A DNA stretch of 37,947 bases, taken from Desulfosarcinaceae bacterium. Lineage in GTDB: Bacteria > Desulfobacterota > Desulfobacteria > Desulfobacterales > Desulfosarcinaceae. The notes under the pieces were generated by a model, which worked only from the letters and a program-made list of their open reading frames with translations, ran no database searches and was not told the DNA's origin. This document shows positions 11,131 through 37,946 of this stretch, piece by piece. Each line of letters starts with the position of its first letter. Position 1 is the first letter of the stretch. The stretch covers positions 1 to 37,947 of the forward strand of contig JASJCL010000043.1 in the NCBI GenBank assembly GCA_030066015.1. The letters are read 5' to 3'. Made by a program: the position numbers and the translations under genes.

Positions 11131-12495
11131 TTAAAACAACCGCTGTAATGCCTGGCGATCGTATTTGCCGGTGGCCAGCATCGGCATCCGGTCCACGATC
11201 TTCATACGTCGGGGTAGTGCCTGGGGTTCCAGCGCATGCGTCAAGACCTCGCGCAGGACGCCGGCCTGGACGTCACCCTCGACGACGGCAACGATCTCCG
11301 CCCCGCGGGCCGCCGATCCGGGCAGTTTGAAGACAACGGCGTCCGACACCCCGGGCTGCACCATCAGCAACTCCTTCACCAGTGTCATATCCACCCGCGT
11401 ACCCCCCACCTTGACGATCCCGTCGTTGCGCCCCCTCAAAACAAGGGAGCCGTCAGCGGCGGTTTCGAGACGATCGGCCAAGATAAAACGCCCCTCCTGG
11501 TCACGGGGCAGGTCCGGAGAGATGAAGGTGGAGCGCACGGCGGCTTGGCTCGCCGTGATATCGACCGTCACCGGGGCGAAGGGGGTCAATCCGGTTTCGC
11601 CCGCCTGGCGGCAGCGGCTGGCGATGCCACCGGTTTCGGTGGATCCATAAATCTCATAGAGGGGGGCACCGGTCGCGGTGCTGAAGGCTTCCCCATCCGC
11701 CGGATCCAAAGGTCCGGTGGATGAGAACGCCATGCGCAATCGATGGTCGCCAAAGGGGAGGTGCCTGAGGCTGCGATAGTGCACCGGCAGGCTCACCAAT
11801 ATGGTGGCTTGGGTGTTTTTTAGGGCGGCGAGGATTTCGTGGGGAAAAACCGGGGTGGCGGCACTCACCCAGGCTCCACTGAGCAGGGGCAGGAGCACGC
11901 CATACAAGAGGCCATAGATGTGGTGGGGCGGGGCCGTGGCCAATATTCGGTCCGTCGGGGTCACCCCGAATCGCCGGGCCAAATAGTCCGTTTCGGCCAG
12001 GAGGTTGGTGGGGGTCTTGGTCCAGATCTTGGGCCGGCCGGTGCTGCCCCCGGTGAAGAGGTAGACCCATGGATCATCGACACCCACGAGACAGATGCCC
12101 GCCACGTCCCCCGTCTCGGAGGCCGGATCGGGCGCAGGGGCGGCATCGGTCCTCAGGGTGATCACCTCTGGCGGCAGCGCTGGGGCGTCCGTCCGCCCCA
12201 CGACGGCGGCCGCAAAGGGGAACTCGCGATGCAACGCTTTTAGGGTCGGAGCGGAATGGGCGTGGGGCAGAATCAAGGGGATTCCCGTCCGAAGCCCGGC
12301 CAGGAGGGCGGCTGCCACCACCGCCCGATCCCCGCAGCAGAGGCAGACCGGCTTCCCCCCGGCGGCCGACCGCATCTGCACCGCCAGGCGATCGGCCATG
12401 CGGTGGATATGTTGAAAGGTGACTTCTTCGCAAAAGTACCGAGCCCCCGCAGCTCGCCTGCGGTTGAGCGACGCTATCAACTTGGGACCTTCCAT
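11131..12495 (-). CDS. Acyl-AMP ligase (ANL superfamily), ApeH-like
   Basis: A 454-residue adenylate-forming enzyme expected to activate a carboxylic acid with ATP and load it onto an ACP or CoA. The P-loop motif TGGSTGRPK lies at about 148-156, YGSTETGG follows in the core, and the C-terminal catalytic lysine motif TGKYDRQAL is near the end. At 454 residues it is shorter than acyl-CoA synthetases and similar to the ApeH-type ligases of aryl-polyene clusters. The ATG at 12495 (GAGAGG upstream) is chosen rather than a much longer frame that would overlap the divergent radical SAM gene. The acid substrate cannot be read from the sequence. Confidence 0.8.
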   Translation of the reverse strand: MEGPKLIASLNRRRAAGARYFCEEVTFQHIHRMADRLAVQMRSAAGGKPVCLCCGDRAVVAAALLAGLRTGIPLILPHAHSAPTLKALHREFPFAAAVVGRTDAPALPPEVITLRTDAAPAPDPASETGDVAGICLVGVDDPWVYLFTGGSTGRPKIWTKTPTNLLAETDYLARRFGVTPTDRILATAPPHHIYGLLYGVLLPLLSGAWVSAATPVFPHEILAALKNTQATILVSLPVHYRSLRHLPFGDHRLRMAFSSTGPLDPADGEAFSTATGAPLYEIYGSTETGGIASRCRQAGETGLTPFAPVTVDITASQAAVRSTFISPDLPRDQEGRFILADRLETAADGSLVLRGRNDGIVKVGGTRVDMTLVKELLMVQPGVSDAVVFKLPGSAARGAEIVAVVEGDVQAGVLREVLTHALEPQALPRRMKIVDRMPMLATGKYDRQALQRLF

Positions 12496-12600
12496 ACTGC
12501 CTCTCGCAAAGGGTCTGAAGGGCGGTTGGATCACATACCGGAATCCCTTATCCCCAGGTTTCAGCAATGCCACTGACGCCGGCGAAGCGCTTTGATTCGC

Positions 12601-12629
12601 TTGACAGCGACCCCCGATTCCACTAGGTT
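12601..12629 (+). promoter_or_regulatory. Promoter for the rSAM-SPASM gene
   Basis: TTGACA (12601-12606), a 17-bp spacer and TAGGTT (12624-12629) lie 38 bp before the start at 12667. The downstream half of the spacer plus the start of the -10 reads TCCACTA, and the same string occurs at the same distance in the candidate promoter at 33841. Confidence 0.5.
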
Positions 12630-12666
12630 CACTAGCTTGATCGACGGTACCATCAGAGGAGGCCCC

Positions 12667-13731
12667 ATGGGCGGCTGCAGCAGCGAACCATCCAGCTTTG
12701 GCTTCGATCCCGAACTGGTGGCGGAGACGGCGCGCAAGAACCGGCTGCTCACCATGGAGATCGAGTTTAGCCTGCGCTGCAACTTCAACTGCCCCTACTG
12801 CTATGTTCCCAGCGAAGCGCAGCTCCGGGGCGAGATGTCGCCCGAGGAGCACAAGCGCGTGCTCCTCCAGGCCCGCGATTTAGGTGCCGGCCGCATTATC
12901 ATACTGGGCGGCGAGCCCACCATCTATCTCCATCTCACCGAAATGATCGCTTTTATTCGGGATGCCGGAATGGGGGTGGAGCTGTTCACCAACGGCTCCG
13001 GTGTGACCCAAGATCTGGCCCGCTTCCTCGCCGAGCACCGGGTGCGGGTCGTTCTGAAGATGAACAGCTTCGACGCCCGGCGCCAGGACAGATTGTCCGG
13101 CAGGGAGGGCGCCCACGAGCTGATCCACCAGGCACTCGACCATCTCAAGGGAGCGGGGTATCCATCTGCCGACCATTTCCTGGCGATCTCCACCGTCATC
13201 TGCCGCCAGAACCTCCAAGAGCTGCCCGGCATGTGGACCTGGCTCAAGGATCAGGGGATCCATCCCTATTTCGAAACCATCACCCCCCAGGCCAATGCCA
13301 AGCAGAACCCATGGCTGGCGGTCTCACCCGGTGAGGTGCGCGCCCTCTTCGAGGAGATCGCCACCATCGACGCGGCGCGCTACGGTCAGAGCTGGTCGAT
13401 CCAGCCACCCCTCCTGGGCAATCGCTGCCTACGCCACCAGTTCTCCTGCCTCGTCGGCGCGCGCGGCGATGTGATGCCCTGTGTGGGCGTCAACCTCCCC
13501 ATCGGCAACGTTCGTGAACAGCCGCTGGCCGACATCATCGCCAACAGCCGGGTCCTTCACGATCTCAAACACCATCGCGACACAATCAAAGGCCCCTGCC
13601 GCACCTGCGAGAAGGCCGCCCACTGCTACGGCTGCCGCGGGGCGGCCTACCAGCTCACGGGAGATTATCTGGCCTCCGATCCCCTCTGCTGGCATTGTGC
13701 CGATACGGACGAATCCTCGTCGCAAGGGTAG
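12667..13731 (+). CDS. Radical SAM protein with SPASM domain
   Basis: A 354-residue radical SAM enzyme. The [4Fe-4S] motif is C38-x3-C42-x2-C45 (RCNFNCPYC), followed by the GGEP motif (IILGGEPTIY). The C-terminal half carries a cysteine set typical of SPASM domains ('NRCLRHQFSC', 'GDVMPCVGVNLPIGNV', 'GPCRTCEKAAHCYGCRGAAYQ', 'PLCWHC'), which holds auxiliary Fe-S clusters. The ATG at 12667 has AGAGGAGG a few bases upstream. It is divergent from the ligase gene. The stop codon TAG lies inside the first unit of a tandem repeat. No precursor peptide gene is visible, so a peptide-modifying role is not supported; a role on a pathway intermediate is equally possible. Confidence 0.9.
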   Translation: MGGCSSEPSSFGFDPELVAETARKNRLLTMEIEFSLRCNFNCPYCYVPSEAQLRGEMSPEEHKRVLLQARDLGAGRIIILGGEPTIYLHLTEMIAFIRDAGMGVELFTNGSGVTQDLARFLAEHRVRVVLKMNSFDARRQDRLSGREGAHELIHQALDHLKGAGYPSADHFLAISTVICRQNLQELPGMWTWLKDQGIHPYFETITPQANAKQNPWLAVSPGEVRALFEEIATIDAARYGQSWSIQPPLLGNRCLRHQFSCLVGARGDVMPCVGVNLPIGNVREQPLADIIANSRVLHDLKHHRDTIKGPCRTCEKAAHCYGCRGAAYQLTGDYLASDPLCWHCADTDESSSQG

Positions 13732-13798: not shown

Positions 13799-13831
13799 GG
13801 TGAACCCACCATCGATGGATGGGGTCTCCCT

Positions 13832-14680
13832 CTACGGGCCGGTTTCCGCTGGCGCAGTTGTCCCAGGCCCCAAGCGGTCCATTATCTTGCGATCGATGAG
13901 GTCCTCCAGGGGGACCACCATCAGCTGGCGATTCGCCAATCCCGCCAACACCCGCTCAACCTCTGCCAACCAGATCGGCACCTCCGCCGGTCGCGGCGGC
14001 GCAGCATCGTGGAGCAGGAGGATGTCCCCCGGCCGTACGCGCCGGAGTAGCTTTGTCGCCAGATCCGCCAAGCGTCGGTTCCCCAGATCATATGCCCGCC
14101 GGCTGAAATTGACGACAATAAGATCCAGCGGCCGCAGCACACCACCCAAAAGGGGATTGGTAATTCCCACCGGCGGCCGAAACGCCCGGGGTCGGACACC
14201 ATGACCGGCCAGCAGCCGTTGTGTCGCGACGATATCGGCGGACAGACGCTTGCTGGAGCGCAGCATGAGCCAGGGGGCATGGCTATAGGAGTGATTCCCA
14301 ACGGTGTGTCCGGCGGCCAGGATGGCGTCCACCAGATCGGGGTGGCGGGCGGCCCGACGGCCCAGCAGGAAAAAGGTCGCCCGGATCCCATGCCTGTGCA
14401 GGAGTTCCAAAAGGGCCGGCGTTGTGGCGGGATCGGGCCCGTCATCGAAGGTCAAGGCGACCGCCCTTGATTGGCGGCTGCCATGGCTGATGACGGGCAG
14501 ATACCAGCTCCAGTGGGGGAAGAACGGGGCCAGGCAACAGATGCCGGCATAGACCGCCAGCGGTAGCATGGCCAACGGCGGCGCCACGAAGATCACCGCC
14601 CCGGCACAGATGAGGGCTGCCAGCGCCCAGCCGTGGGCCGGTGACCAGCGACCGCTGTGATCCTTTCCGGTCAACGTCAT
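13832..14680 (-). CDS. Polysaccharide deacetylase (NodB-fold) membrane protein
   Basis: A 282-residue protein with two N-terminal hydrophobic segments (about 17-53) and a NodB-homology domain from about residue 70. Metal and catalytic motifs are intact: TFDDGPD (Asp79, Asp80), HSYSH (His130, His134), FRPPVG and a terminal 'DILLLHD' histidine motif. Carbohydrate esterase family 4 enzymes remove N- or O-acetyl groups from sugars with a divalent metal. The gene's start overlaps the stop of the MMPL-methyltransferase gene in an ATGA arrangement, so the two are translationally coupled. This suggests a job on a glycosylated or acetylated product rather than on cell wall, but that is inference. Confidence 0.85.
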   Translation of the reverse strand: MTLTGKDHSGRWSPAHGWALAALICAGAVIFVAPPLAMLPLAVYAGICCLAPFFPHWSWYLPVISHGSRQSRAVALTFDDGPDPATTPALLELLHRHGIRATFFLLGRRAARHPDLVDAILAAGHTVGNHSYSHAPWLMLRSSKRLSADIVATQRLLAGHGVRPRAFRPPVGITNPLLGGVLRPLDLIVVNFSRRAYDLGNRRLADLATKLLRRVRPGDILLLHDAAPPRPAEVPIWLAEVERVLAGLANRQLMVVPLEDLIDRKIMDRLGPGTTAPAETGP

Positions 14681-17600
14681 CGACCCTCCTCCCCGGCGAA
14701 ATGAGGCACCGGACGCAGTACGAACCAGGCCAGCTCTCCTTTGATGCCCGACGGGGCTTCGGCGTCAACACGAAAGCCACCTCTGGAAAAGAGCCGAACG
14801 AGCTCTTCGGGGGTGCGGTAGTGGGCGCGGAATCCCTGGCGGCGGAGTTTGAAATCCTCAAACCGGAATAGGAGCGTCCGGCCTTGGTTGGAGGGGATTA
14901 CCGAACGCACCAGCACCTGCCCGTTGGTCGATAGCGCGCTGTAAAGGCGCTGAAGGGTCAATTCAAGTGCCCTGTCACTGAGGTAGTGGGTCATGTCCAG
15001 CAAGGTGACCAGCTGGGCCGGTTGCGGCGCCTGCGGAATATCCGGGGCACCGCCCTGGACGATCTCTCCGCGGTCGCCCAGGGTCAGGTTGGCCACCCGA
15101 ACCCGATCGATCTGCGGTTCCAGGCCAAAGAGCTTCGCCTTGGGAAAGGTTTCGGAGAGCCAATTGGCCGGGACGCCGTAGCCGCTACCGATATCCAGTA
15201 TGGTCTCGACGTCCCCGGTATCGGGAAGCAGCGGCCCGATCTCGGTGAACAAGGGATCGAAGTGGAGTTTAAAGCGGGCGAAAAGCCGTGGGTACCCTTC
15301 CAGGCTGCGATAGCGCCAGCGCACCCGCGCGGCGGTGTCGAGGGCGTCCTCCGGCGGACGTCGTGCCACATGGCGGTCCAGCAGCGGCGGCAGGATGAGA
15401 AAGGCGCCCAGCAGGCAGTATCCGATTCCCAGCAGCGAGGTCAGGCCCACGCTGCGCAATAGGGCGTGCTGAGCGGTGCCCATTACGCCGAAACCGATCA
15501 GGGTGGAGGCGGAGGCCATAAGGATCGCGGTGCGCACCAGGGTGAAGGGGGGTGCCGTGGCATGCTGATAGCGCTGGTAGGAGCGGATAAAAAAAAGGGT
15601 GTAGTCGATACCCATGCCAAACACCACGATGGCCAGCATGAGGCCCGGCAGGTCCAAGTGGTGGCCGAGAAGGTTGAGGGTTCCCAGGGTGGCAACCATG
15701 GCGAAGAGGAGCGGCAGGAGGGCGATGAGGGTGAGCTTGAGATCGGCAAAGAAGAGCAGCAGCAGGCAGATCACAGCGCCGCCGATCACCGCCAGCATCT
15801 GGGCAAAGGTCGTGAACAGCAGCTCTCCCAGGCGGCTGGCGAATCCCTGCGGGTCGAAGATGATGGCGGTGACGGCCCATTCCCGGGGGGCGCTGACCAC
15901 GGGGCGTTCAGATGGGCCGCGGTTTTCAAGAGGGCTGAGGGCTACGAAATGGCGCCAGGTGCCCGTTTCAGCATCATGGGAGATTTGCAGGAGTCGCTGG
16001 ATGGCAGGGGCCATCTCCGCGGAGGGGTTCGGGATGCCGTTGGGCGTCAGCTGACCGATAAAGGGCGCGAAGGCGTCCGGCGTGAAGCCAAGTGTGGCGG
16101 CGCTTGTTTTCAGCGACCGGGTCACCCGCGCGCGGCGCTCGGGCGTCCAAAAATCTGTCCAAGCTGCCAGGTTGGCTTCCAGCCGCTCGCGCCCGGGAAA
16201 GACCATCGCGGCGGTGAAGCCGGTGAAACCGTTCGACTGTTGTTCCATGGCGGTCAATAACCGGTCGCTCTGCGACTGCAGATCCGCCAGGCTGGCAGCT
16301 TCCAGGAGCAGGTAGGTGCGGTCGAAGAGATTGCCCCAGATCTCCTGGAGGGCGGCCTCGGCCGCCAAGGTCTGCCGACTGACGGTGTTCAATCGGCTCA
16401 GTTCGGTGTCGAAGTCGGGTCTGGCAAAGATGGTCAGTAGCGCGCCGAGGCCAAGGACCAGGATCAATCCGGGTACACCGCCGCGGGCCAGGCGGTTTGC
16501 CAGACGGTGCAGGATAAGGGGGCGGCGGCTGCTGGCTGCCGGCATCTGGGGAAATATCGTGGGAAACACCGTGTGAACGAAGAGAAAGGCGTAGCCGATG
16601 CCCAACGCCGTGAAGTATCCCAGTTGGGTAAATATGGTGACGCCGCTCAGGCCCAAGGTGGCGAAGGCGCCCACCGTGGTGAGCGCCGCCAGGAGGCCCA
16701 CCGACCAGACTTCGTGGGAGGCCGCTTTTCCGGTGGTGGGTTTGGAGCGGTCGAGAAAGAGCAGATAGCAAATGCCGTGGTCCACGGTGATGGAGATGAT
16801 GGCCCCGCCAAAACCCAGCACCAGGAGCGAAATGGTGTCATTGAAAAGTGAGATGGTGAAGAGCGCTGCCGCTGTGCCGCCTGCGGCGGGCAAGAGGGCC
16901 ATCAGCCCCACCCAGGGGCGGGGAAAGGCGATGAGCAGCAGGAGGGCGATCCCAATAGTGGCCAGCAGCAGGGCACGGCGGACATCCGCTTTGACGATGG
17001 TTTCGTTGTCCAGGGCTGCCCGGTGGGCACCCACCACGGTGAGCGTGAGGCGGTTGTCCGGGGTGTCGAAGCGGTCCTTTAACGCCAATTCCAGCGATGC
17101 GAGTGCGCCACTGATGCGGGCTGCCAGTTGCGTGTCGGTGGCCGAACCCGACGGAACCGCTCCGGTGAGCGTGTGCCGACCGTCGCTGGAGATCAGCCGT
17201 CCCTGCACCATGCGAACGGCCTGGTGCGGCGCCAGCGTGCCCAGACGGGCCAGGACGATCTCGCGCAGCCCCAAGGGATCCGCCGCCAGGAGGTGGTACT
17301 GGCCGATAGCGTCCATGCCGGCCAGCTGCTGGAACTCTTGGGTGAGGCGGGCCGTGATCGCTTCGGGGAGGAGCCGGGGACCGACCTCATCCTCCAGGTC
17401 CGCTGCACTGAAGAGCATGGGCAGATGGGCGGTGGTGTGGGAGACCAGTTCAGGCAGGCCGCGCTGCAACTCGTCGAAGCCGATGCTGGCGAACAGAGGA
17501 CTTTTACCGAGGGCGGCCTCCACCGCAAGGCCGATTGTGACCAGCCGCTGTGGATCGGGTGCCGTCAGGCCAACGTCGATGGTGATGCGGTCCTTCATGG

Positions 17601-17841
17601 GGTGGTGCTTGAACAGGTGAACTGCATCACGGATCACCGGATCGGTGGACGGCAGCGATCCCACGATGTCGGTGTCGAAGGTCAATCGCAGGATGCCGCC
17701 CCACGCCAGCAGAACCGTCACCACGATGGTGGCGATGAGGGCGGGGAGATGAACGCCCTGTATGGTAAATTTGGGGCTCAATTGCGCGGCCTTACCTGCA
17801 TTTGTGGGTGATTCTACTCGCCGGCGACGGCCGCCCTGCAC
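14677..17841 (-). CDS. MMPL/RND exporter fused to a class I methyltransferase
   Basis: A 1054-residue two-part protein. Residues 1-820 form an MMPL-type RND exporter: TM1 (about 31-52), a large periplasmic loop, a transmembrane block near 275-450 ('VDHGICYLLFLDR' in it), a second loop, and another block near 685-810 (with 'GMGIDYTLFFIRSYQRY'). From about 830 a cytoplasmic SAM-methyltransferase domain follows, with motif I ILDIGSGYGV, 'LFGLEPQIDR' and 'LLDMTHYLSD'. In aryl-polyene clusters the exporter (ApeM) and methyltransferase (ApeB) are separate genes; here they are one. The start is uncertain: GTG at 17841, or TTG at 17781 which has AGGTAAGG upstream. It is coupled to the deacetylase gene downstream. 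Confidence 0.88.
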   Translation of the reverse strand: MQGGRRRRVESPTNAGKAAQLSPKFTIQGVHLPALIATIVVTVLLAWGGILRLTFDTDIVGSLPSTDPVIRDAVHLFKHHPMKDRITIDVGLTAPDPQRLVTIGLAVEAALGKSPLFASIGFDELQRGLPELVSHTTAHLPMLFSAADLEDEVGPRLLPEAITARLTQEFQQLAGMDAIGQYHLLAADPLGLREIVLARLGTLAPHQAVRMVQGRLISSDGRHTLTGAVPSGSATDTQLAARISGALASLELALKDRFDTPDNRLTLTVVGAHRAALDNETIVKADVRRALLLATIGIALLLLIAFPRPWVGLMALLPAAGGTAAALFTISLFNDTISLLVLGFGGAIISITVDHGICYLLFLDRSKPTTGKAASHEVWSVGLLAALTTVGAFATLGLSGVTIFTQLGYFTALGIGYAFLFVHTVFPTIFPQMPAASSRRPLILHRLANRLARGGVPGLILVLGLGALLTIFARPDFDTELSRLNTVSRQTLAAEAALQEIWGNLFDRTYLLLEAASLADLQSQSDRLLTAMEQQSNGFTGFTAAMVFPGRERLEANLAAWTDFWTPERRARVTRSLKTSAATLGFTPDAFAPFIGQLTPNGIPNPSAEMAPAIQRLLQISHDAETGTWRHFVALSPLENRGPSERPVVSAPREWAVTAIIFDPQGFASRLGELLFTTFAQMLAVIGGAVICLLLLFFADLKLTLIALLPLLFAMVATLGTLNLLGHHLDLPGLMLAIVVFGMGIDYTLFFIRSYQRYQHATAPPFTLVRTAILMASASTLIGFGVMGTAQHALLRSVGLTSLLGIGYCLLGAFLILPPLLDRHVARRPPEDALDTAARVRWRYRSLEGYPRLFARFKLHFDPLFTEIGPLLPDTGDVETILDIGSGYGVPANWLSETFPKAKLFGLEPQIDRVRVANLTLGDRGEIVQGGAPDIPQAPQPAQLVTLLDMTHYLSDRALELTLQRLYSALSTNGQVLVRSVIPSNQGRTLLFRFEDFKLRRQGFRAHYRTPEELVRLFSRGGFRVDAEAPSGIKGELAWFVLRPVPHFAGEEGR

Positions 17842-17964
17842 ATCCTCTGCACCGGTTGGGTATCCCAGCGGCGATGCCCCTTCCCGAGGCCCTGCAGCCC
17901 ATGGTGAGGCCTATTGAATCTGCGGCAGGACCCACCATCGCGGTGAACCCATCGGTCTTCAGCG

Positions 17965-18675
17965 TCATGACGCCAGCCACCACAATATGATCCCCAGCAT
18001 CGCTACCCAGCCGGCCGTGTGAAGGGCCAGCAGCAGGGGGCGGTGGCGGTGGAAGAATTCGTTAACCCGTTGAATGCGCTTTAACCCGCCGCACAAAAGG
18101 CGAAAGCGTTCCAAACGGCGATGTTTTTCATTATCCGAAGGGGCGTCGCTTTGAAAGGCGATGGCGGGATAGAGGGCGTAGGCGTTTTGTATCTCCCGTC
18201 GCAGCATGCCGTCGTAGGTATGCCCCGCCCAGGGGAGCTGCACCAGCCGGCGGGCCGTGGCGGCCGTGACGGCGTAGGCATGGGCCAGGGCCCGATAATG
18301 GATGCGGCGGACGCCGGGGGTCTCGCAACCGCGGCTGCCGTCCACCAAAGCGCCCAGGCAGAGCATTTCCCACCCTTCGATGGCCAGCGCCCCGGTAAGC
18401 CGCACCGCCAAGCGGGTGTCCACGGGGGCCAGCAACACATCATCCTCGAAGATGAGGATGGTCTCGGCTCCCGCCGCAAGGCCCTCCGCCAGGCACGCCC
18501 GGTGGGATTCATATATCCCACGCTCGCTATCAACGGGATCCTTTTCCACCAGGCGGTAGCGTACCCGGTCTGCCAGGCCGGCCCGTTCGAATTGTTGGCG
18601 GGCGCTGGCTCGCCGATCGCGGCGCTCCTTCACGGAGATGCAGTAGATCTGGTCAAATAGCTCCCAGCCGTTCAC
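17965..18675 (-). CDS. Glycosyltransferase family 25 protein
   Basis: A 236-residue GT25-like enzyme, the family of LPS galactosyltransferases that use nucleotide sugars. The N-terminal 'IYCISVKERRDRRASARQQF' strand and the metal-binding 'ILIFEDDVLLAP' (EDD) are diagnostic, followed by 'WEMLCLGAL' and 'YDGMLRREIQ'. A C-terminal hydrophobic segment (last 20 residues) probably anchors it to the inner membrane. The start is GTG at 18675 with GGACAGAGG upstream; longer frames have no ribosome site. It precedes the MMPL-methyltransferase gene on the same strand (123-bp gap), which suggests it glycosylates the exported compound. Confidence 0.8.
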   Translation of the reverse strand: MNGWELFDQIYCISVKERRDRRASARQQFERAGLADRVRYRLVEKDPVDSERGIYESHRACLAEGLAAGAETILIFEDDVLLAPVDTRLAVRLTGALAIEGWEMLCLGALVDGSRGCETPGVRRIHYRALAHAYAVTAATARRLVQLPWAGHTYDGMLRREIQNAYALYPAIAFQSDAPSDNEKHRRLERFRLLCGGLKRIQRVNEFFHRHRPLLLALHTAGWVAMLGIILWWLAS

Positions 18676-18823
18676 GAATCCTCTGTCCTTTTGTCGCCGC
18701 TCGCCATCAGTGATTGGGCCGGTGGTGGTCAGCCACGCAGAAAACCCTTGCCTGCCGATGGGCGAAACGCCTAAAGAGGGGCCATGTTGACGATGATCTT
18801 CCACCCGATCAAGCGAGGTTGAG

Positions 18824-20494: not shown

Positions 20495-20498
20495 GACC

Positions 20499-21764: not shown

Positions 21765-21777
21765 CTGTGCATTTCCA

Positions 21778-30027: not shown

Positions 30028-30471
30028 ATGCCGGACATCGATCTCAGTGTCGAAGCGTTGCTGCCCCATCGCGGCCGAATGCTGCTGGTGGAGGAGGTGC
30101 TTCTGGCCGATACGAAACGGGCCGTCACCCGTCAGATCGTTCGTCCCCACTGGCCCCTCTGCGATGACCGCAACGTGAATGCCCTCATTCTCATTGAACT
30201 GGTGGCTCAGACGGCGGGGATCTGCAACGGGCTGGAACGGGTGGCTACCCACGGGAAAGACGCTGACCGCAAGGGGTGGCTGGTGGGGATCAAAAAGGCG
30301 GTGCTCCAGATCGATCGGCTCGCTCTGGGAACCGAGATCGTCGCAAAAGCCCAGAATCACTTCGTCTTTGAGCATTTTCGCGAGATCGGCGGCACGGCCC
30401 ACCTGGATGACCGCCAGGTCGCTGAGGTGGTGTTGCAGGTGGTGCGCGCCGACACACAAACAGGCCCTTGA
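30028..30471 (+). CDS. ApeP-like hotdog dehydratase
   Basis: A 147-residue hotdog protein. The N-terminus 'ALLPHRGRMLLVEEVLLAD' and central 'VNALILIELVAQTAGICNG' match the ApeP/FabZ-like pattern; Glu57 stands where FabZ has its catalytic acid. The canonical GHFPG loop is missing (PHWPLCDDRN is there instead). It is thus the mirror of the ApeI-like protein, which has the His loop but not the acid. The ATG at 30028 follows GGAGGGCCGCC. It is the first gene of the plus operon with fabG, lolA-like and lipoprotein genes, divergent from the ACP2 operon. Confidence 0.8.
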   Translation: MPDIDLSVEALLPHRGRMLLVEEVLLADTKRAVTRQIVRPHWPLCDDRNVNALILIELVAQTAGICNGLERVATHGKDADRKGWLVGIKKAVLQIDRLALGTEIVAKAQNHFVFEHFREIGGTAHLDDRQVAEVVLQVVRADTQTGP

Positions 30472-30643: not shown

Positions 30644-31363
30644 ATGGCATACGCGCTGGTGACCGGAGCGAGCAAAGGGATCGGCCGGGCGATCTGTGTG
30701 GCCTTGGCCAAAGCCGGCTACGACCTCGTGGCCAACTATCGCAGCGATGCGGCCGGGGCGCACGAAACGCTTGACCTGGTGAGGTCCGCGGGCCGCAGCG
30801 GACAGGTGATGGGTTTCGATGTGGCCGACGGTGGACAGGTAGCGGCGGCCCTGAAGACACTTTTCGCGTCCAGCGGCGCGCCGGAGGTGCTGGTGAACAA
30901 TGCCGGCGTGACGGCGGACGGACTCTTCATGATGATGCCGGCCGACAATTGGCAGCGGGTGATCGGCACCAGTCTGGACGGGTTTTATAACGTCACCAAG
31001 CCGGTGGTGGAGAAGATGGTGCGTCAGAAGAGGGGCAGCATCGTCAATATCGCCTCGGCGGCTGGCCTGACAGGCAATCGCGGCCAGACCAACTATTCTG
31101 CGGCCAAAGCGGGCCTCATCGGGGCCAGCCGCAGCCTGGCGGCCGAGGTGGGACGGCTGGGTATTCGAGTGAACGTCGTGGCACCGGGCCTCATTGATAC
31201 CGACATGATTCGGGACCTGCCCCTGCCAAATCTCAAGCAGATGGTGCCCATGGCAAGGGTGGGGCGTCCCGAGGAGGTGGCCAGCGTGGTGGCCTTTCTC
31301 TGCTCCGCGGGGGCCTCCTACATCACCGGACAGGTGATCGGGGTGAACGGCGGGCTCATTTGA
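30644..31363 (+). CDS. fabG: 3-oxoacyl-ACP reductase (FabG/ApeQ-like)
   Basis: A 239-residue short-chain dehydrogenase that reduces beta-ketoacyl-ACP with NADPH. The cofactor motif TGASKGIG lies at 7-14, NNAG at 85-88, and the catalytic Ser138, Tyr151 and Lys155 (YSAAK) are all present. The C-terminus '[11 protein letters not shown]' is typical of FabG. The ATG at 30644 has GGAGGACG upstream. It follows the ApeP-like gene after 172 bp in which I see nothing else. It is the only ketoreductase in the window, so it presumably serves every elongation round. Confidence 0.92.
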
Positions 31364-31571: not shown

Positions 31572-32186
31572 ATGCGGCGATGCTTGCAGATGGTACTGGT
31601 GACGGCGGCGCTGTTCAGCATCGGCTGGACCACCTCCTGGAGCAGCATCCATGCGGCGGCCGATGCGGTCAGGACGGTGCAGTCCGATTTCACCCAGGAA
31701 AAACATCTGCCCATTCTGCAGAGACCACTGGTTTCCAAGGGGCGCTTTGCCTACGAGGCCCCCGGCAACCTGCGCTGGGAGTACCACGCCCCGGCGCGCA
31801 GCATTCTCCTCATGCAGGGCGGTGAAACCCGGCGCTTTCTCGAATCGCAAGGGCGGCTGGTGCCCGATCGGAGCGCGGGCCTTGCCGCCATGTCGGTGGT
31901 GATGGACCAGATAACGGCATGGCTGCAGGGCCGTTTCGACACCAACCAGAGCTTTGCCGCCGAATTGGTTCCCGGTGGCACCATCGTACTGACGCCTACC
32001 GCCGCGGGGATGGCCAAGATGATCCACCGCATCGAACTCCAACTCGCCGCCCAACCCGGGGCCATCGATATGGTCACCATCTATGAGGACGAGGCCGCCT
32101 TCACGCGCCTGAAATTTCATAACCTCCGCCTCAACCACCCCCTGGAGGAGGCGCTTTTTCGGGAAGCAGCGCCCCATGGTGCCTGA
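31572..32186 (+). CDS. LolA-like outer-membrane carrier (ApeL-like)
   Basis: A 204-residue exported protein with a signal peptide (about residues 5-28) and a LolA-like fold: 'VRTVQSDFTQEKHLPILQRPLVSKGRFAYEAPGNLRWEY', then 'ITAWLQGRFD' and 'VTIYEDEAAFTRLKFHNL'. LolA family proteins ferry hydrophobic cargo across the periplasm. In aryl-polyene clusters the equivalent (ApeL) is thought to carry the polyene lipid. The ATG at 31572 follows GGGAGG. Its end overlaps the next lipoprotein gene by 11 bp. The 208 bp before it (31364-31571) hold no recognised feature. Confidence 0.8.
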   Translation: MRRCLQMVLVTAALFSIGWTTSWSSIHAAADAVRTVQSDFTQEKHLPILQRPLVSKGRFAYEAPGNLRWEYHAPARSILLMQGGETRRFLESQGRLVPDRSAGLAAMSVVMDQITAWLQGRFDTNQSFAAELVPGGTIVLTPTAAGMAKMIHRIELQLAAQPGAIDMVTIYEDEAAFTRLKFHNLRLNHPLEEALFREAAPHGA

Positions 32187-32877
32187 CGGCCCTGGACGCA
32201 GAGGCCGGATAGCGGCGCTACCGGCGCTCGCTTGGTTGCTGCTCCTCAGCGCTTGCGCCGGGATGCCGGCCCTGCATCCACTGCCACCGGGGGTGTCCCA
32301 GCCGCGGCCATTTCTCCAGGGTCGCTGGCAGCTGACCCATCGCATCGAGGCCATTTTTCCGGGCAATCACACCGCCTTGCTGATGGGTGCCCTGGAGCTG
32401 GACAGCGAGACGCGTCATCTGCGCTGCGCACTGATGACGGTGGAGGGGTTCACCCTGTTCAGCGCTGCCAAAAGCGACCGCCTCCGGGTCACCCGCGCCG
32501 TGCCGCCATTTGACGGGCCGGGCTTCGCCGAGGGGCTCATGGCCGATCTGGCGCTGCTTTTTCTGGCGCCCCGGGAAACGCGCCAGGTGACGGGATCGAT
32601 TCACGGCCGGCCGACCCGGCGCTTTCTGCATATGGACGGCACTGCCACCGACGTCTCCACCATCGCCACCGGCCATTTCCGCATCGACCGCTACTCATCC
32701 GACGCCCGGTTGATCCGCAGAGCGCTCCTCACACCGACGGCGGCACGCCCGGAAGAGGGGCGACCGGCGGCGGAAATCCACCTTGATGCACTCGGCGATG
32801 CCCGTTACGCTCTCAGATTGACCCTTATCGATGCCGTTCGGACAGATGCCAGCGATGGCGCCACAGACTCCCCATGA
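32176..32877 (+). CDS. DUF3261-like lipoprotein (ApeN-like)
   Basis: A 233-residue predicted lipoprotein: signal segment about 11-26 with lipobox LSAC and Cys27. The mature part ('QGRWQLTHRIEAIFPGNHTALLMGALELDSE', 'MTVEGFTLFSAA') resembles the DUF3261 lipoproteins of aryl-polyene clusters. Their place next to LolA-like and MMPL genes suggests that they act as the outer-membrane receptor, LolB-like, for the exported lipid; this is inference. The start overlaps the lolA-like gene by 11 bp, indicating coupled translation. Confidence 0.75.
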   Translation: MVPDGPGRRGRIAALPALAWLLLLSACAGMPALHPLPPGVSQPRPFLQGRWQLTHRIEAIFPGNHTALLMGALELDSETRHLRCALMTVEGFTLFSAAKSDRLRVTRAVPPFDGPGFAEGLMADLALLFLAPRETRQVTGSIHGRPTRRFLHMDGTATDVSTIATGHFRIDRYSSDARLIRRALLTPTAARPEEGRPAAEIHLDALGDARYALRLTLIDAVRTDASDGATDSP

Positions 32878-33329
32878 CGGCGATCCGCTCGATCCGGATC
32901 GAACTAACAGGACCATACCAGACGGATCTCCTACAAACGGACACCGCAGGGGCCCCTTCCCCCTCCTGGCGCACCCATCGCATCGAACCGGCAGACCGTG
33001 TGCCACACCCAGGTGCCCCCGCTGGCCACCTGCCACATCCGCTCGCCCATGGTTTTCGCAGTACCTTGCCGATCAATTTCAGGCGCTTGATGGGACGGTG
33101 GTGGATCTGTGCTGACCCTCGCACGGGGCATGGCGGGCGCTGAAGCGGCCCGTTTCATCATGGCCATATTCCCTATCAGGCAGACTTCCGATAGGCCCCC
33201 GCCAGGTATTATCTCACACTTCACGCGGATGATCTGCCCTTGCCGATACCCGCCATCTGCTGTTTAATCCAATGCAACCACCATGGTCGTATGAACAGCA
33301 TTTCCAACAGGTTGCAGGTGGAGGAAACG
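32878..33329. other. 452-bp stretch without a convincing gene
   Basis: An open frame of 89 codons (32874-33143, plus) starts in an ATGA overlap with the lipoprotein stop but matches nothing I know and has no ribosome site of its own. On the minus strand two short frames could be joined by a frameshift near the AAAA run around 33050 and read 'RPIKRLKLIGKVLRK' then 'TMGERMWQVASGGTWVWH', perhaps a decayed gene. Neither is secure, so no gene is called. Confidence 0.4.
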
Positions 33330-33674
33330 ATGGCACATCACAAATGGTATTCCATTGGTGCGGGGATCGTCATCATCGTCGGATTGGTCGCGACGCAAGC
33401 GCTCACCATTGGAAAAAATACGGTATTCGATCAACCCATTGTAAACGGGACTTCTATTCGTGTGGAGAGACCGGCTGATGGGCCCGCTACCAACAGCGAC
33501 CCGGTGACCGAGCTCAAACCGGTGGACCCTTCCGAGATATCGCGACCGCTCCCAAAGGCGCCGGCCGTCAGGCCTGCCTTAGAGGGGGATGCGGTTCAAG
33601 CGGCTGGCAAGCAGAAAAGGTCCGATAGCGTCCGACGATACCTGTTTTTTCGATACCTGATCTCCAAATCATGA
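33330..33674 (+). CDS. Small single-pass membrane protein, unknown
   Basis: A 114-residue protein with one N-terminal transmembrane segment (about 8-27, 'IGAGIVIIVGLVATQALTIG') and a Pro/Lys/Asp-rich tail ending in a basic segment. The ATG at 33330 follows GGAGGAAACG, a strong ribosome site that supports a real gene. No family recognised. It lies alone between the plus lipid-transport operon and the B12-rSAM gene. Confidence 0.55.
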   Translation: MAHHKWYSIGAGIVIIVGLVATQALTIGKNTVFDQPIVNGTSIRVERPADGPATNSDPVTELKPVDPSEISRPLPKAPAVRPALEGDAVQAAGKQKRSDSVRRYLFFRYLISKS

Positions 33675-33992: not shown

Positions 33993-35270
33993 TTGAAGCT
34001 TAAGCTGATCTATCCCAAGTGGAAGAAACTCTCCCGCCAGACCGAATTTCATCTGCCGCCCCACGGGCCGGTGGTCTTCGCCGCGGCGCTGCCCGAAGGG
34101 GTCGCGGTCGACTTCGTGGATGAAAACCTGGAAGCGATCGATTTCGATGATCCGGCCGATGTGGTCGGCATCTCCATGATGCTCACTGTGCAGGTGAAGC
34201 GGGGATGGGCCATCGCCGACGAATACCGCCGCCGGGGGATCCCTGTGATTTTCGGCGGCATCGCCACCATGCTCCACGCCGAGGAGACCCAGGCACACGC
34301 CGATGCCGTCTTCCTGGGGGAGGCCGAAGGGCATATGGAGGCCCTTTTCGACGATCTGCGCCAAGGCCGGCTCCAGCAGGTCTACAACCACATGGAGGAG
34401 CTACCGCCCATTGAGACCGTGGGAACGGCGCGGCGCGACATCCTCAAGCGGGAGCTTTACAACTACAGGGGGGTTCAGATGGTGGACCTGGTGCACGCTT
34501 CCCGCGGTTGTCGCTACCACTGCTTCCCCTGTGCCGTCGCCTACCTGGGAGGGCGCCAGTTTCGGCCGCGGCCCATCGATCGGGCCATCGCCGAGATGGC
34601 CAGTATCGACAACAATCGCCTTTTTATCGTGGACAACTCCCTGGCCCAGGACACGCAGTGGGAGAAGGACCTCTTCCGGGAGATGATCCCACTCAAAAAG
34701 AAATGGTGCAGCCACCCCATCGAGGACTCCCCCGAAGTGCTCGACCTCGCCGCACAGGCCGGCGCCTGGTACGTCTATCAGGCCGTGTTTGACACCTCGG
34801 ACTACATCCGCGAACGCATACGCCGCTACCACGATCACGGTATCGCCGTCGAAGGTACCATCCTGCTGGGCCTGGACGACCACACCGAAGATTCCATAAA
34901 GCGCTTCGTCGATTTTCTGATGGAGATCGAGCTGGATCTGGCCGAGTTCACCGTTCTGGCCCCCTTTCCCCACACCAAAGCCTACGCTCAGCTGCACCGG
35001 GAGGGGCGCATCCTCTCCTACGATTGGGATGATTACACCGCCGACAAGGTGGTCTATCAGCCCAAACAGATGTCGGCAGAGCGCCTCCAAGCGCTTCTCG
35101 ACGATGCCTGGGAGACCTTTTACGCCGAGGAGTCCCAGCAGATCAAAATGACCCGCCTCTTCCAGCAGGTGATCCGCAAGGAGATGGCCGACGGCACCTA
35201 CCGGCCGCGGGACCGACAGCTGGCGCGTCAGCGCTTCGGCCGGGTCAGCGGGACTGCGATACCGGATTGA
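33993..35270 (+). CDS. B12-binding-type radical SAM protein 2
   Basis: A 425-residue enzyme. The N-terminal domain (about 1-120) has the cobalamin-binding-like pattern of this class ('ADVVGISMMLTVQVKRGWAIADEYRRRGIPVIFGGIATMLHAEE', 'ADAVFLGEAEG') without DxHxxG. The radical SAM motif is C173-x3-C177-x2-C180 (RGCRYHCFPC). The rest forms a TIM-barrel-type domain with 'GTILLGLDDHTEDSIKRFVDF'. The start is TTG at 33993 with AGGGTGA just upstream; no better start exists. It is transcribed alone, away from the main operons. Substrate unknown; C-methylation or ring formation on the cluster product is possible. Confidence 0.88.
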   Translation: MKLKLIYPKWKKLSRQTEFHLPPHGPVVFAAALPEGVAVDFVDENLEAIDFDDPADVVGISMMLTVQVKRGWAIADEYRRRGIPVIFGGIATMLHAEETQAHADAVFLGEAEGHMEALFDDLRQGRLQQVYNHMEELPPIETVGTARRDILKRELYNYRGVQMVDLVHASRGCRYHCFPCAVAYLGGRQFRPRPIDRAIAEMASIDNNRLFIVDNSLAQDTQWEKDLFREMIPLKKKWCSHPIEDSPEVLDLAAQAGAWYVYQAVFDTSDYIRERIRRYHDHGIAVEGTILLGLDDHTEDSIKRFVDFLMEIELDLAEFTVLAPFPHTKAYAQLHREGRILSYDWDDYTADKVVYQPKQMSAERLQALLDDAWETFYAEESQQIKMTRLFQQVIRKEMADGTYRPRDRQLARQRFGRVSGTAIPD

Positions 35271-35392
35271 AGGGGGTGATGGGGCTCGCGCGCCAAACAG
35301 GCGGTGCGCCGATCGAGTGGCCAGCGGAGATAGGGGGACATTACCTTCGACGCTGGCGGTGTTGACGGACGGGCGCCCTGAGGCTCGGTTTT

Positions 35393-35650
35393 TCAAAGTC
35401 CCTTGGCAGAGTACAATACCACCTTCTTGCCCACGAAATTGATTTTGATATACTTCTCCTCCCCGCCCCAACTGCAGTTTTGCACACCCACCGCGCCGCC
35501 GCATTCATCGGCTTCTCCGAGGATGGCGATCACCTCGTCGTAGTTCATTCCCATGGTGATCTTGTCGTAGTTCTCCTTGGTGAGTTTGCTGCAGCCGACC
35601 CCCAGAAGGAGCAGGGCGATACAGAGCAGCCTGGTGAGGGTGTTTTTCAT
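35393..35650 (-). CDS. DUF3862-like lipoprotein
   Basis: An 85-residue lipoprotein with lipobox LGVGC (Cys20). The mature part ('LTKENYDKITMGMNYDEVIAILGEADEC', 'NCSWGGEEKYIKINFVGKKVVLYSAKGL') matches the DUF3862 domain, a small BLIP/SmpA-like fold common in Proteobacteria. Two cysteines after the lipidated one (about 50 and 59) may form a disulfide. The ATG has GAGGATCTC upstream. It follows the B12-rSAM 3 gene by 36 bp on the same strand. The 122 bp downstream (35271-35392) show no feature that I can support. Confidence 0.8.
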   Translation of the reverse strand: MKNTLTRLLCIALLLLGVGCSKLTKENYDKITMGMNYDEVIAILGEADECGGAVGVQNCSWGGEEKYIKINFVGKKVVLYSAKGL

Positions 35651-35686
35651 CGAGATCCTCCTGTCGCCTTGCGATTGCGTCTGCGG

Positions 35687-37183
35687 TCAAAGATCGATTA
35701 GATCGGGGAAATGGTTCATCCGCTCAAGCCGCTGGAGTTCACGCTGGTAGCGGCCCTCCCAGCCATCGCGCTTGAGGATACGGGCATAAAAGCGTTTCAT
35801 GAGCGGCTTCATGATGTAGATCCAGATCGCGGTCCAGCCGCGGCCCTGGCTGCGGGCCCGGCCCGAAGGTCTCCAGAAGCCGAGCACCTTTTGACGGTGC
35901 AGCCAAAAAAGATATTGCAGCTGGTCCGAGCTCAAGTGGCGGGTTTTCACGTTGGCCCACAGCCCGCTGTACTTCTTGTAATCGGTTTTGTTGGTCACCA
36001 GCCCTTGCTGGATCAGCTCGGCCCGCATGCCGGTCTTGGGGTAGGGCGTGAGAATTTGGCAGTAGGCAGCGTCGGCGTCGATATCCTTGAGGAACTGATA
36101 GTTGGCGATGATGTCTGCCTCTTCGTCGTCAGGGAAGCCGAAGATCAGGCCCCCGATCACCATGATGCCATACTTGTGGCACATGGCCACCGCCTTTTGG
36201 GAAGCGCTGACGATGTTGCCCTTGCCGGCGGCGTCGAGGTTTTTTTTGGAGGCGCTTTCGATCCCCAGAAAGACGGAGCGGAATCCGGCTTGGGCCATCT
36301 TGGCCACCATCTCCTCGTTCTGGCTCATGCTGATGCAGTCGGCCTGGACCACCAGGTTGAGCTTGCGGTAGCCCCGGGCGATGATGGCGTCGCAGAGGGC
36401 CATGACCCGCTTGGGATTGAGGACCATGTTGTCGTCCACGATAAAGGCCCAGCGGCATTTGCGGGTGTAGTAGATGTCGTCGAGGTCGGCCAGAACCCGT
36501 TCGATCGGATAGGGGCGGAAACTGCGACCGTACATGTGGCGCATGCTACAGAAGTTGCACCCCCGGGTGCACCCGCGTGACGTTTCCAATAGTTCGATCT
36601 TGGAGTAGAGGATGTGGTAGCCCCAAGTGAGGCGGCGCTTATCGCGGATGGGCAGCTCGAGGGGCTGGGAGAGATCCAGTGGGCCGTCCCAGGCGTTGTG
36701 TACGAATTGTCCGTCGGCATTCCGCCAGGAAAGGCTGGGGATGGTGTCCAGCGCGTCCTCGCCGGCCAGCGCGTTGACCAGCCGCTTGCAGACGATCTCT
36801 CCCTCACCGCGCACCATGAAGTCGAAGAGGCGTCCCTCGTCGGCACTGCCGATCTCGTCATACATGAGGGTAGCGTGGTAGCCGCCGATGGCGATCTTGG
36901 TTTCCGGTCGGCAACGCCGTATCACCTTGGCGATCTTGGTGCAGGTGTCGTATTGCCAGGCCATGGCGGAGAGCCCCACGAGATCGGGCTGGTACTTGCG
37001 CAGCAGCCGCTCAACGTAGGCGCGCACCCGGCGGCGTTTGCGGATCAGATCGACGATGTGTACCTCGTGCTGGGGATCGATGTTGGCCCCCACACAGGCG
37101 ATGCCGTGGCTCGGCATATGGATGGCCGTCTCGTGGATGATCAGCGGGGCCACATCGGGCATCGACATGAGGATGACCTTCAT
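35687..37183 (-). CDS. B12-binding-type radical SAM protein 3
   Basis: A 498-residue enzyme with an N-terminal B12-binding-type domain (about 1-140: 'ILMSMPDVAPLIIHETAIHMPSHG', 'PDLVGLSAMAWQYDT', 'KIAIGGYHATLMYDEIG', 'FMVRGEGE') and a radical SAM domain with C205-x3-C209-x2-C212 (RGCTRGCNFC). A long C-terminal region with basic residues ('YIMKPLMKRFYARILKRDGWEGRYQREL') may touch membranes or a polyanionic partner. The ATG at 37183 has AAGGGAG upstream. It lies 37 bp after the acyltransferase gene and so is probably cotranscribed with it, hinting at a lipid substrate. Confidence 0.9.
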   Translation of the reverse strand: MKVILMSMPDVAPLIIHETAIHMPSHGIACVGANIDPQHEVHIVDLIRKRRRVRAYVERLLRKYQPDLVGLSAMAWQYDTCTKIAKVIRRCRPETKIAIGGYHATLMYDEIGSADEGRLFDFMVRGEGEIVCKRLVNALAGEDALDTIPSLSWRNADGQFVHNAWDGPLDLSQPLELPIRDKRRLTWGYHILYSKIELLETSRGCTRGCNFCSMRHMYGRSFRPYPIERVLADLDDIYYTRKCRWAFIVDDNMVLNPKRVMALCDAIIARGYRKLNLVVQADCISMSQNEEMVAKMAQAGFRSVFLGIESASKKNLDAAGKGNIVSASQKAVAMCHKYGIMVIGGLIFGFPDDEEADIIANYQFLKDIDADAAYCQILTPYPKTGMRAELIQQGLVTNKTDYKKYSGLWANVKTRHLSSDQLQYLFWLHRQKVLGFWRPSGRARSQGRGWTAIWIYIMKPLMKRFYARILKRDGWEGRYQRELQRLERMNHFPDLIDL

Positions 37184-37220
37184 AAACGCTCCCTTGTGAA
37201 GCCTGCGGCGTCGGTTCTCT

Positions 37221-37946
37221 TCATCGGCATGCGGCGACGGCCTGTAGGTGGGATTGGAGCCGTCTGCGCGTGTCGGCCACCACAGCGGCCATCGCCGCCT
37301 TTCCCCCATCCGCGGCCGGGGCGGCCACCTCACCGACCCAGTCCACTGAGATGGTGCCGCTGTCCAAAGCCCTGAAAACAAAGCGTCCCGGCTGAAAGAG
37401 CCGGTCGCTGCCCTGAATCGACAGAAGCTGGATGGGGCGTCCCATCTGGCGGGCGACCTTGAAAACGCTGCTGTGCAGCTCGCCGACCCGACCGTCGCGA
37501 CTGCGCGTGCCCTCCGGAAATACAATGAGGTTGGTACCCGCAGCCAGCTCGGCCGGCAGAGCCGCCATGCGGTCCAACATGAGACCGGCCAGATGGCCCT
37601 CTGCCCTGGAGGGCAGATATCCAGAGGTGCGCAGCATCCATCCGAAGATGGGAATGGTAAATAGTCGCGCCTTGGCAATCGTGGTGTGTCGTAAATACAG
37701 CGAGATCAGCAGAATCGCATCGATATAACTCACATGGTTGCAGACGATGAGGCTGCCCCTGAGTCGTAGCACTCGTGGATCGATCCGCCATCGCCAGCCA
37801 GGCATGAGGCCACGCGCCAGGCGAAAGAAGCCCTGGTAGAAGCGGCTGTTGAGATGCCGAAAGCGTACCGCCCGATTCGGCGCGAAGAGGGCTGCCCAGG
37901 CGTAGAAGGGGCTGAAAAGGAGCACGAAGCCGGCCGTAAAGTAGGT
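37221..37946 (-). CDS. PlsC-type acyltransferase, 5' end beyond the window
   Basis: A lysophospholipid-acyltransferase-like protein of at least 241 residues. Motif I NHVSYIDA (NHx4D) and motif III FPEGTRSRDG are intact, with a hydrophobic N-terminal segment ('VLLFSPFYAWAALF'). A GTG at 37925 could start it, but the frame stays open with hydrophobic codons to the window edge, so the true start probably lies outside. Aryl-polyene clusters encode such an enzyme (ApeD) to attach the polyene to a lipid or glycerol backbone. It is the upstream partner of B12-rSAM 3 (37-bp gap). Confidence 0.87.
   Translation of the reverse strand, partial: TYFTAGFVLLFSPFYAWAALFAPNRAVRFRHLNSRFYQGFFRLARGLMPGWRWRIDPRVLRLRGSLIVCNHVSYIDAILLISLYLRHTTIAKARLFTIPIFGWMLRTSGYLPSRAEGHLAGLMLDRMAALPAELAAGTNLIVFPEGTRSRDGRVGELHSSVFKVARQMGRPIQLLSIQGSDRLFQPGRFVFRALDSGTISVDWVGEVAAPAADGGKAAMAAVVADTRRRLQSHLQAVAACR

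Follow-up and report, generated by a model that had tools for sequence, protein, structure and literature searches.

The window analysed here is the entire 37,947-base contig JASJCL010000043.1 of a Desulfosarcinaceae bacterium (parent assembly GCA_030066015.1, 5.73 Mb in 155 contigs). From position 11131 to the right contig edge it carries a type II polyketide synthase (PKS) cluster in which two uncharacterised radical S-adenosylmethionine (radical SAM, rSAM) enzymes, rSAM A and rSAM B, are encoded in tandem among the genes for chain building. Two ketosynthases (KS1 and KS2), a thioesterase, a PKS-type dehydratase, an acyl carrier protein (ACP) and the tandem rSAM A/B form a conserved core, while the remaining four rSAM enzymes and the export genes vary among loci. 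We think it reasonably probable that the cluster represents a conserved polyene-lipid pathway of Desulfobacterota-type anaerobes, in which rSAM A/B would act on the ACP-bound chain. The cluster is a variant of the polyene/ladderane-candidate kind and was partly anticipated in 2009; the new element is the tightly linked tandem of uncharacterised rSAM enzymes, a core that was not found in the open-access literature searched. Many sulfate-reducing and syntrophic bacteria share the cluster, and the rSAM pair nearly always accompanies the chain-building enzymes.

Relatives of rSAM B in a species-level collection amounted to 407 stretches (tblastn, E 1e-3), the best 80 of which are 66-74% identical to rSAM B over the best segment. 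By title, 74 of these 80 are deltaproteobacterial, Desulfo- or syntroph-type, three are Spirochaetes, one is Planctomycetota and two are unplaced; the closest relatives of the window's rSAM B among them are Desulfobacteraceae-type metagenome-assembled genomes. The named hosts are Desulfosarcina widdelii, Desulfatitalea alkaliphila, Desulfogranum japonicum and Desulfobacter vibrioformis, and because the cluster is present in named strains, radical modification of ACP-bound chains is directly testable. Genes were counted in the 34 stretches of at least 18 kb among the best 80 of the 407, and in 19 long loci (stretches of 33-40 kb, excluding a NaphS2 contig without the rSAM pair). Both counts used the same ortholog-level score thresholds, set by the analyst's choice; a looser criterion (any phmmer match at E 1e-4) admits paralogs and gives 34/34 for KS1, KS2 and the thioesterase and 29/34 for the B12-binding rSAM enzyme B12a. 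A gene absent from a 33-40 kb stretch may have been cut off by a contig end or may lie at a second locus; in Desulfogranum japonicum, B12a sits beyond the 40-kb stretch. The tandem pair and the chain-building genes are as follows, where fractions over 34 and 19 refer to these two sets.

19164-20036, minus strand: PKS-type double-hotdog dehydratase (PKS_DH); PF14765 and PF21089; 34/34 and 19/19.
20015-20536, minus strand: YbgC/FadM-type thioesterase; PF13279, TIGR00051 above cut-off; 32/34 and 18/19.
20499-21764, minus strand: ketosynthase KS1; PF00109/PF02801, Cys-His-His; 33/34 and 18/19.
21778-23028, minus strand: ketosynthase KS2; PF00109/PF02801, Cys-His-His; 32/34 and 18/19.
23077-24075, minus strand: rSAM A, uncharacterised radical SAM enzyme; PF04055 at 30.7 bits; 34/34 and 19/19.
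24072-25178, minus strand: rSAM B, tandem partner of rSAM A, resembling it in sequence and cysteine plan; 34/34 and 19/19.
25294-25554, minus strand: ACP1; PF00550 at 34.4 bits; 31/34 and 18/19.
25628-25984, minus strand: FabA/ApeI-like hotdog dehydratase; PF07977 at 29 bits; 32/34 and 19/19.
27346-29595, minus strand: ketosynthase plus chain-length-factor-like didomain protein (KS-CLF); PF00109/PF02801, then PF13723; 11/19.
29592-29858, minus strand: ACP2; PF00550 at 37.4 bits; 28/34 and 17/19.
about 30028-30471, plus strand: ApeP-like hotdog dehydratase; 139 bits to a 150-residue family member, the family being present in 15 loci including the window.
30644-31363, plus strand: FabG/FlxB-type ketoreductase; PF13561 at 198 bits, FabG family NF004200 above cut-off; 12/19.

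rSAM A lies at most 0.7 kb from rSAM B in 32 of the 34 loci. Across the best 80 stretches rSAM A was found in 73, in 71 of them within the same distance, and the seven stretches without it are at most 12 kb long. Co-occurrence was further examined in 297 genomes of the phylum. rSAM B reached at least 541 bits in 21 of these (the window's own included), the next genome scoring 128 bits, and KS1 reached at least 592 bits in 21, the next match scoring 336 bits. The two sets of genomes are identical (21/297, from 10 families); the naive hypergeometric value for this overlap is 1e-32, which ignores kinship, and some families, such as f24, f48 and f58, hold carriers as well as non-carriers. Within the order to which Desulfogranum japonicum leads, 67 of 193 genomes carry rSAM A at 640 bits or more. 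On the identical distributions of KS1 and rSAM B, together with the 34-locus counts, the possibility that the rSAM genes are chance neighbours was rejected. A preliminary description of this DNA had proposed a single pathway uniting the PKS genes with six rSAM enzymes, to be abandoned if the latter were not conserved with the former in relatives. The core pair is so conserved, with one exception (Desulfobacter vibrioformis); as a unit of six the proposal did not hold, the other four having counts of 5 to 14 among the 19 long loci.

The two members of the tandem are 28% identical to each other. Alignment A1 was built from 20 of 30 loci, leaving out L011 and L017 (internal stops) and L023-L030 (distant and partial) and shortening L004, L009 and L012; alignment A2 (rSAM B) comprises 53 of 80 named loci plus the window and A3 (rSAM A) 55 of 73 plus the window, and rows with stops or undetermined residues number two for rSAM B and two for rSAM A. 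Mean column identity was 85% over 56 sequences for rSAM A and 75% over 54 for rSAM B. Among 16 genes compared, median identity to the window was highest for rSAM A (77%), other values being 74% for the B12-binding rSAM enzyme B12b (14 loci), 70.5% for ACP1, 70% for rSAM B, 66% for KS1 and 63% for KS2. Cysteines C35/C39/C42 and C245/C278/C279/C286/C289 are invariant in the 56 rSAM A sequences, and besides the CxxxCxxC motif a C-terminal C...CC...C-x2-C set is kept in both proteins. From its sequence pattern, this C-terminal motif probably binds an auxiliary iron-sulfur cluster.

Relatives of rSAM A/B are widespread, yet the pair falls under every named family's cut-off: no NCBIfam family was above cut-off for rSAM A, whose weak matches lie mostly over the CxxxCxxC half, and none was above cut-off for rSAM B. 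Against PDB sequences the rSAM A profile hit SkfB alone, at 23.8 bits. AlphaFold (AF2) models of the pair were usable, with pLDDT values of 83.6 (rSAM B) and 82.7. In fold comparisons the rSAM B model matched SkfB (Z 17.8, root-mean-square deviation (rmsd) 5.2, 246 residues aligned), BlsE (Z 17.5, 3.6, 263) and anSME (Z 17.0, 3.6, 260). Within the fold lists obtained, the models of rSAM A/B sit among the SPASM/twitch rSAM enzymes without a single close relative.

The chain-building genes were annotated by Pfam scans of 31 open reading frames (ORFs) of the window and NCBIfam scans of 20 of those. The two ACPs, the single ketoreductase, the YbgC-like thioesterase, an AMP-binding ligase, an MMPL exporter and a LolA-like carrier named in the preliminary description were all confirmed in this way. 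Its count of three ketosynthase genes also holds, with the correction that the third encodes the KS-CLF didomain, giving four KS-type domains. The KS domain of this protein keeps Cys-His-His, and its third best PDB match (KS domain, 173 bits) is 6qsp_A, which we take to be an aryl-polyene ketosynthase. As to the three dehydratases claimed, PKS_DH and the FabA/ApeI-like protein have Pfam support, and the third was recognised only through its family of loci; ORF 30028-30471 had neither a Pfam nor a PDB match, and the ApeP-like label is presumptive, given by resemblance. The FabA/ApeI-like dehydratase scored 27.1 bits against PF22818 (ApeI-like), under the cut-off of 28.5, and matched PDB entries 3esi (40.5 bits) and 6qsr (32.1 bits). 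No separate enoyl reductase was recognised among the scanned ORFs. Within the CLF-like half of the KS-CLF gene, positions 27688-27775 consist of a perfect 15-base unit repeated 5.9 times, encoding SERDL repeats.

Besides the tandem pair, four rSAM enzymes are encoded in the cluster.

12667-13731, plus strand: radical SAM/SPASM protein, AhbD/NirJ/PqqE-like; PF04055 at 80 bits, SPASM at 37 bits; 5/19.
25985-27349, minus strand: B12a, B12-binding radical SAM enzyme; TIGR04072 (rSAM_ladder_B12) at 414 bits, cut-off 360; 24/34 and 14/19.
33993-35270, plus strand: B12b, B12-binding radical SAM enzyme; PF02310 at 35.2 bits; 12/19.
35687-37183, minus strand: B12c, BchE/HpnR-type B12 radical SAM enzyme; TIGR02026 at 146 bits, below cut-off; 5/19.

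All six rSAM proteins carry the CxxxCxxC motif reported earlier, as judged by eye in the translations. Five pass the Pfam Radical_SAM cut-off; the exception is B12b (19.8 against 29.5), which passes that for B12-binding. The whole 5.73-Mb genome holds 60 Radical_SAM matches, and the five found here compare with 0.28 expected in 26.8 kb if they were evenly spread. For the SPASM protein no NCBIfam equivalog was above cut-off among the 25 matches listed.

In its gene content the cluster is a polyene/lipid type II system, and to this extent the polyene-type lipid pathway proposed in the preliminary description stands. In the pathway that we favour, KS1, KS2, KS-CLF, the ketoreductase, the dehydratases and the ACPs would assemble a chain that stays on ACP and is left largely unreduced (a polyene), in the manner of aryl polyenes and flexirubins; these genes, without a separate enoyl reductase, are present in the window, and their order of action and product are deduced from gene content. 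rSAM A/B would then abstract hydrogen from the carrier-bound chain, altering it by sulfur insertion, cyclisation or desaturation; their genetic linkage to the chain-building genes is observed, and the ACP-bound chain is their presumed substrate. The B12-dependent enzymes (TIGR04072 and B12b type) may go on to methylate the chain, close rings in it or make similar changes that differ between lineages. The chain would be released or passed on by the thioesterase, the ligase and the PlsC-type acyltransferase, and the lipid brought to the outer membrane by MMPL, LolA and the lipoprotein. For PlsC and these three export proteins, which are encoded in the window, the functions are predicted by analogy with the aryl polyene and flexirubin systems.

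Further relatives of rSAM A/B, defined as such by profile scores, were found beside lipoyl synthase genes. Among 294 genomes of another phylum (that of locus L074, titled Planctomycetota) a true rSAM A/B pair occurs in one, L074's own, and four further genomes carry a relative at 131-154 bits (A1 profile). In three loci (L136, L137 and L138) the relatives match the rSAM A profile at 216-228 bits and the rSAM B profile at 139-151 bits, over most of each. A LipS2-like rSAM gene adjoins the rSAM A relative in all three (189-201 bits, cut-off 270). Among the ORFs scanned, a LipS1-like gene was found in one (217 bits, cut-off 230) and heterodisulfide-reductase-like genes in two, one of these with two lipoate-ligase-like genes. 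Three of the four genomes have ordinary LipA; the one with the lipoate ligases (G492) lacks it. The substrate of LipS1/LipS2 is an octanoyl chain held on a carrier protein (PMC9585515, PMC10332631), to which LipS2 and then LipS1 add sulfur at C8 and C6, apparently from auxiliary clusters (PMC9585515). Since relatives of rSAM A thus stand beside carrier-bound acyl machinery in two settings, PKS and lipoate, this sequence context supports a carrier-bound acyl substrate for rSAM A/B, without showing sulfur insertion. LipS1/LipS2 are two cooperating rSAM enzymes whose auxiliary clusters serve reactions on a carrier-bound acyl chain (PMC9585515), a plan that rSAM A/B, with their conserved extra cysteines, would share. 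They differ in that rSAM A/B are set within a PKS cluster, and the LipS1/LipS2 families NF053742/NF053743 gave no match at E 1e-5 among 56 rSAM A sequences and none at E 0.01 with the window's rSAM B. It is possible, though we consider it unlikely, that rSAM A/B are a new two-enzyme radical system with LipS1/LipS2-like logic, inserting sulfur or making rings at unactivated carbons of an ACP-bound polyketide; if true, a previously unseen sulfur- or ring-bearing polyene lipid would be widespread in sulfate reducers and syntrophs.

Two side observations concern these distant relatives. The LipS2-like and rSAM A-like tandem of L136, L137 and L138 may represent a third rSAM of lipoate systems. A divergent protein resembling rSAM B (196 bits) is encoded in L139, at about 9862-11022, near DNA polymerase III alpha and TamB genes; no PKS or lipoate gene was recognised among its scanned neighbours, except for a 79-bit ketoreductase match.

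Several points weigh against a polyene-lipid pathway in which rSAM A/B modify the ACP-bound chain. The pathway is predicted from genes, and by fold rSAM A/B resemble SPASM/twitch rSAM enzymes in general (SkfB, BlsE, anSME, viperin), many of which use peptide or nucleotide substrates. The relatives beside LipS2 are distant by the rSAM A profile scores given above (216-228 bits), the LipS2-like and LipS1-like scores lie under their cut-offs, and LipS1/LipS2 make lipoyl without a third rSAM. In Desulfobacter vibrioformis rSAM A and B share a locus but are 8.8 kb apart, and KS1, KS2 and the thioesterase are missing from its 40-kb locus. Of the 19 long loci, 5 lack B12a, 7 lack B12b, 14 lack B12c and 14 lack the SPASM protein, in some cases perhaps through contig ends.

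Comparison with the aryl polyene (ApeA-R) reference gene set bears on whether this is instead an ordinary aryl-polyene or flexirubin-like pigment cluster with the rSAM genes as accidental neighbours. KS-CLF, two ACPs, the ketoreductase, the thioesterase, MMPL, LolA and the ligase all fit the aryl-polyene plan, as the ApeI-like dehydratase may at its score just under the family cut-off, and a ketosynthase with chain-length factor, ACPs, ketoreductase, thioesterase and exporter are present as in members of that class; the ketoreductase resembles FlxB and the carrier LolA2_flexi of flexirubin clusters. The window differs in its several rSAM enzymes and its extra KS1/KS2 pair. No aryl-starter gene (aromatic ammonia lyase or similar) was found among the 31 scanned ORFs of a contig truncated at its right end, and the flexirubin equivalogs lie under their curated cut-offs (FlxB 303.7 of 340 bits, LolA2_flexi 90.6 of 125 bits), so that flexirubin membership was rejected and the label of an aryl-polyene cluster, pure and simple, was not borne out. 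With KS1 and rSAM B identically distributed across the 297 genomes, the pigment explanation is decidedly improbable. We regard as extremely improbable that the rSAM pair links two lipid tails through a carbon-carbon bond, like the tetraether synthase Tes. Tes (GDGT-MAS) is indeed among the fold matches of rSAM B (7tom, Z 13.6, rmsd 3.7, 228 aligned), but many other rSAM enzymes score higher there, and against the Tes family NF045702 (cut-off 450) rSAM A scored 26.4 bits, over residues 29-91 only, and rSAM B 22.7; membership of that family was rejected on these scores. Alternatively, the cluster might make polyunsaturated fatty acids or hydrocarbons anaerobically, the rSAM enzymes serving as oxygen-independent desaturases or processing enzymes. 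This resembles what Rattray et al. proposed for Desulfotalea psychrophila, whose C31:8 and C31:9 hydrocarbons those authors tie to a syntenic cluster (PMC2649909). They credit desaturation mainly to phytoene-desaturase-like genes (PMC2649909), none of which was recognised in the window; a PKS without enoyl reductase can leave double bonds with no desaturase needed, and the export genes suggest a surface lipid. We therefore hold this route to be fairly improbable.

The gene set also bears on the long-open ladderane question. Rattray et al. (2009) report clusters in Desulfotalea psychrophila, Geobacter and Pelobacter similar to the ladderane candidates of Kuenenia stuttgartiensis, with synteny in Desulfotalea psychrophila; in that species they found no ladderanes but did find the C31:8 and C31:9 hydrocarbons (PMC2649909). 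A Kuenenia-type KS cluster, whose gene order fits the kuste3335-3352 cluster treated by Rattray et al. and Javidpour et al. (PMC2649909, PMC4790861; the tag-by-tag match is ours), contains homologues of the SPASM protein (307 bits), B12a (293), the ketoreductase (193), B12b (184), MMPL (65) and ACP (40), and a weak deacetylase homologue (25 bits). In two anammox-type genomes four KS-pair loci were examined, and B12b-type rSAM genes adjoin every one of them; the KS-adjacent rSAM proteins, those of the Kuenenia-type cluster included, reach 137-233 bits with the B12b profile and no more than 118 with either of the other two. The comparison is therefore real, B12a being a TIGR04072 member and the B12b family adjoining anammox-type KS pairs, and the clusters have in common the SPASM-rSAM, the TIGR04072 and B12b-type rSAM enzymes, ketoreductase, ACP, MMPL and a FabF-like ketosynthase. 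In the B12a tree the Desulfobacterota-type sequences form one clade (100/100) with the Kuenenia-type gene outside, although the exact place of the latter is unsure because of its long branch.

The relationship to ladderane clusters suggested earlier is thus upheld for these homologues, whereas the window differs in having the tandem rSAM A/B, the PKS-type dehydratase and the YbgC-like thioesterase (no ortholog-like match in the Kuenenia-type cluster) and, unlike the ladderane-candidate clusters, a KS-CLF fusion. No rSAM A/B ortholog was present in the Kuenenia-type cluster (14-16 bits to its SPASM-rSAM). Elsewhere in anammox-type genomes the rSAM B profile gave matches of only 49-63 bits, which were dropped as ladderane-cluster rSAMs because no KS or ACP matched in the four places taken with their flanks (L131/L132, L133, L134 and L135). 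Of ten cluster-bearing genomes, seven had no match to the ladderane-type phytoene desaturase at E 1e-20 and three had one of no more than 117 bits, against 236-244 bits in two other anammox-type genomes; no such desaturase was found among the scanned window ORFs, and the best match in the window's own genome (81 bits) lies on a different contig. As a caution, neither TIGR04072 nor the SPASM-rSAM occurs throughout anammox-type genomes: of the four genomes with HZS-alpha matches (G394, G554, G523 and G444), two of which hold the four KS-pair loci with B12b-type rSAM genes, one has TIGR04072 above cut-off, and close SPASM-rSAM matches, found in three of 14 genomes searched, include among these four only that TIGR04072-positive one. 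A straightforward ladderane pathway was rejected for want of a close desaturase and of an rSAM A/B ortholog in the Kuenenia-type cluster; with the reported synteny and shared B12-rSAM families on one side and the missing ladderanes of Desulfotalea psychrophila on the other (synteny and lipids from PMC2649909), a ladderane pathway outside anammox bacteria, whole or incomplete, is very unlikely.

The remaining genes of the cluster, which is incomplete at the right because the window is the whole contig and the PlsC gene runs off its end, are as follows.

11131-12495, minus strand: AMP-binding acyl/aryl ligase (start is a best guess); PF00501 at 105 bits; 10/19.
13832-14680, minus strand: polysaccharide deacetylase family protein; PF01522 at 99.5 bits; 14/19.
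14677-17841, minus strand: MMPL/RND-type exporter with C-terminal methyltransferase; PF03176 and PF13489; 10/19.
17965-18861, minus strand: GT25-like glycosyltransferase, marginal; PF01755 at 24.1 bits (cut-off 24); 6/19.
31572-32186, plus strand: LolA-like lipid carrier; PF03548 at 47.5 bits; 11/19.
32176-32877, plus strand: lipoprotein-like protein adjoining LolA; no Pfam family; homologues in 11/19.
37221-37946, minus strand: PlsC-type acyltransferase, truncated by the contig end; PF01553 at 74.3 bits; 6/19.

The preliminary description had overlooked the deacetylase and missed the methyltransferase fused to the MMPL exporter, which is itself present as claimed. Its PlsC gene was recovered, truncated, and its GT25 gene is there at the marginal score given above; the DUF3261-like call for the lipoprotein failed, no Pfam family matching at E 0.01. 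ORF 33291-33674 had no counterpart in the 19 long loci. A small protein with DUF3862/BamE-like matches is encoded at 35393-35650, between two rSAM genes, and occurs in 0/19 related loci. To the left of the cluster, positions 9205-10911 encode an FG-GAP repeat protein with a weak CsgG match (0/34 related loci), and positions 1-63 hold a tRNA truncated by the left contig end (Rfam match; none by ARAGORN). The left 11 kb are otherwise ordinary, with argS, gatC and gatA (read from the translations) and MutL (Pfam).

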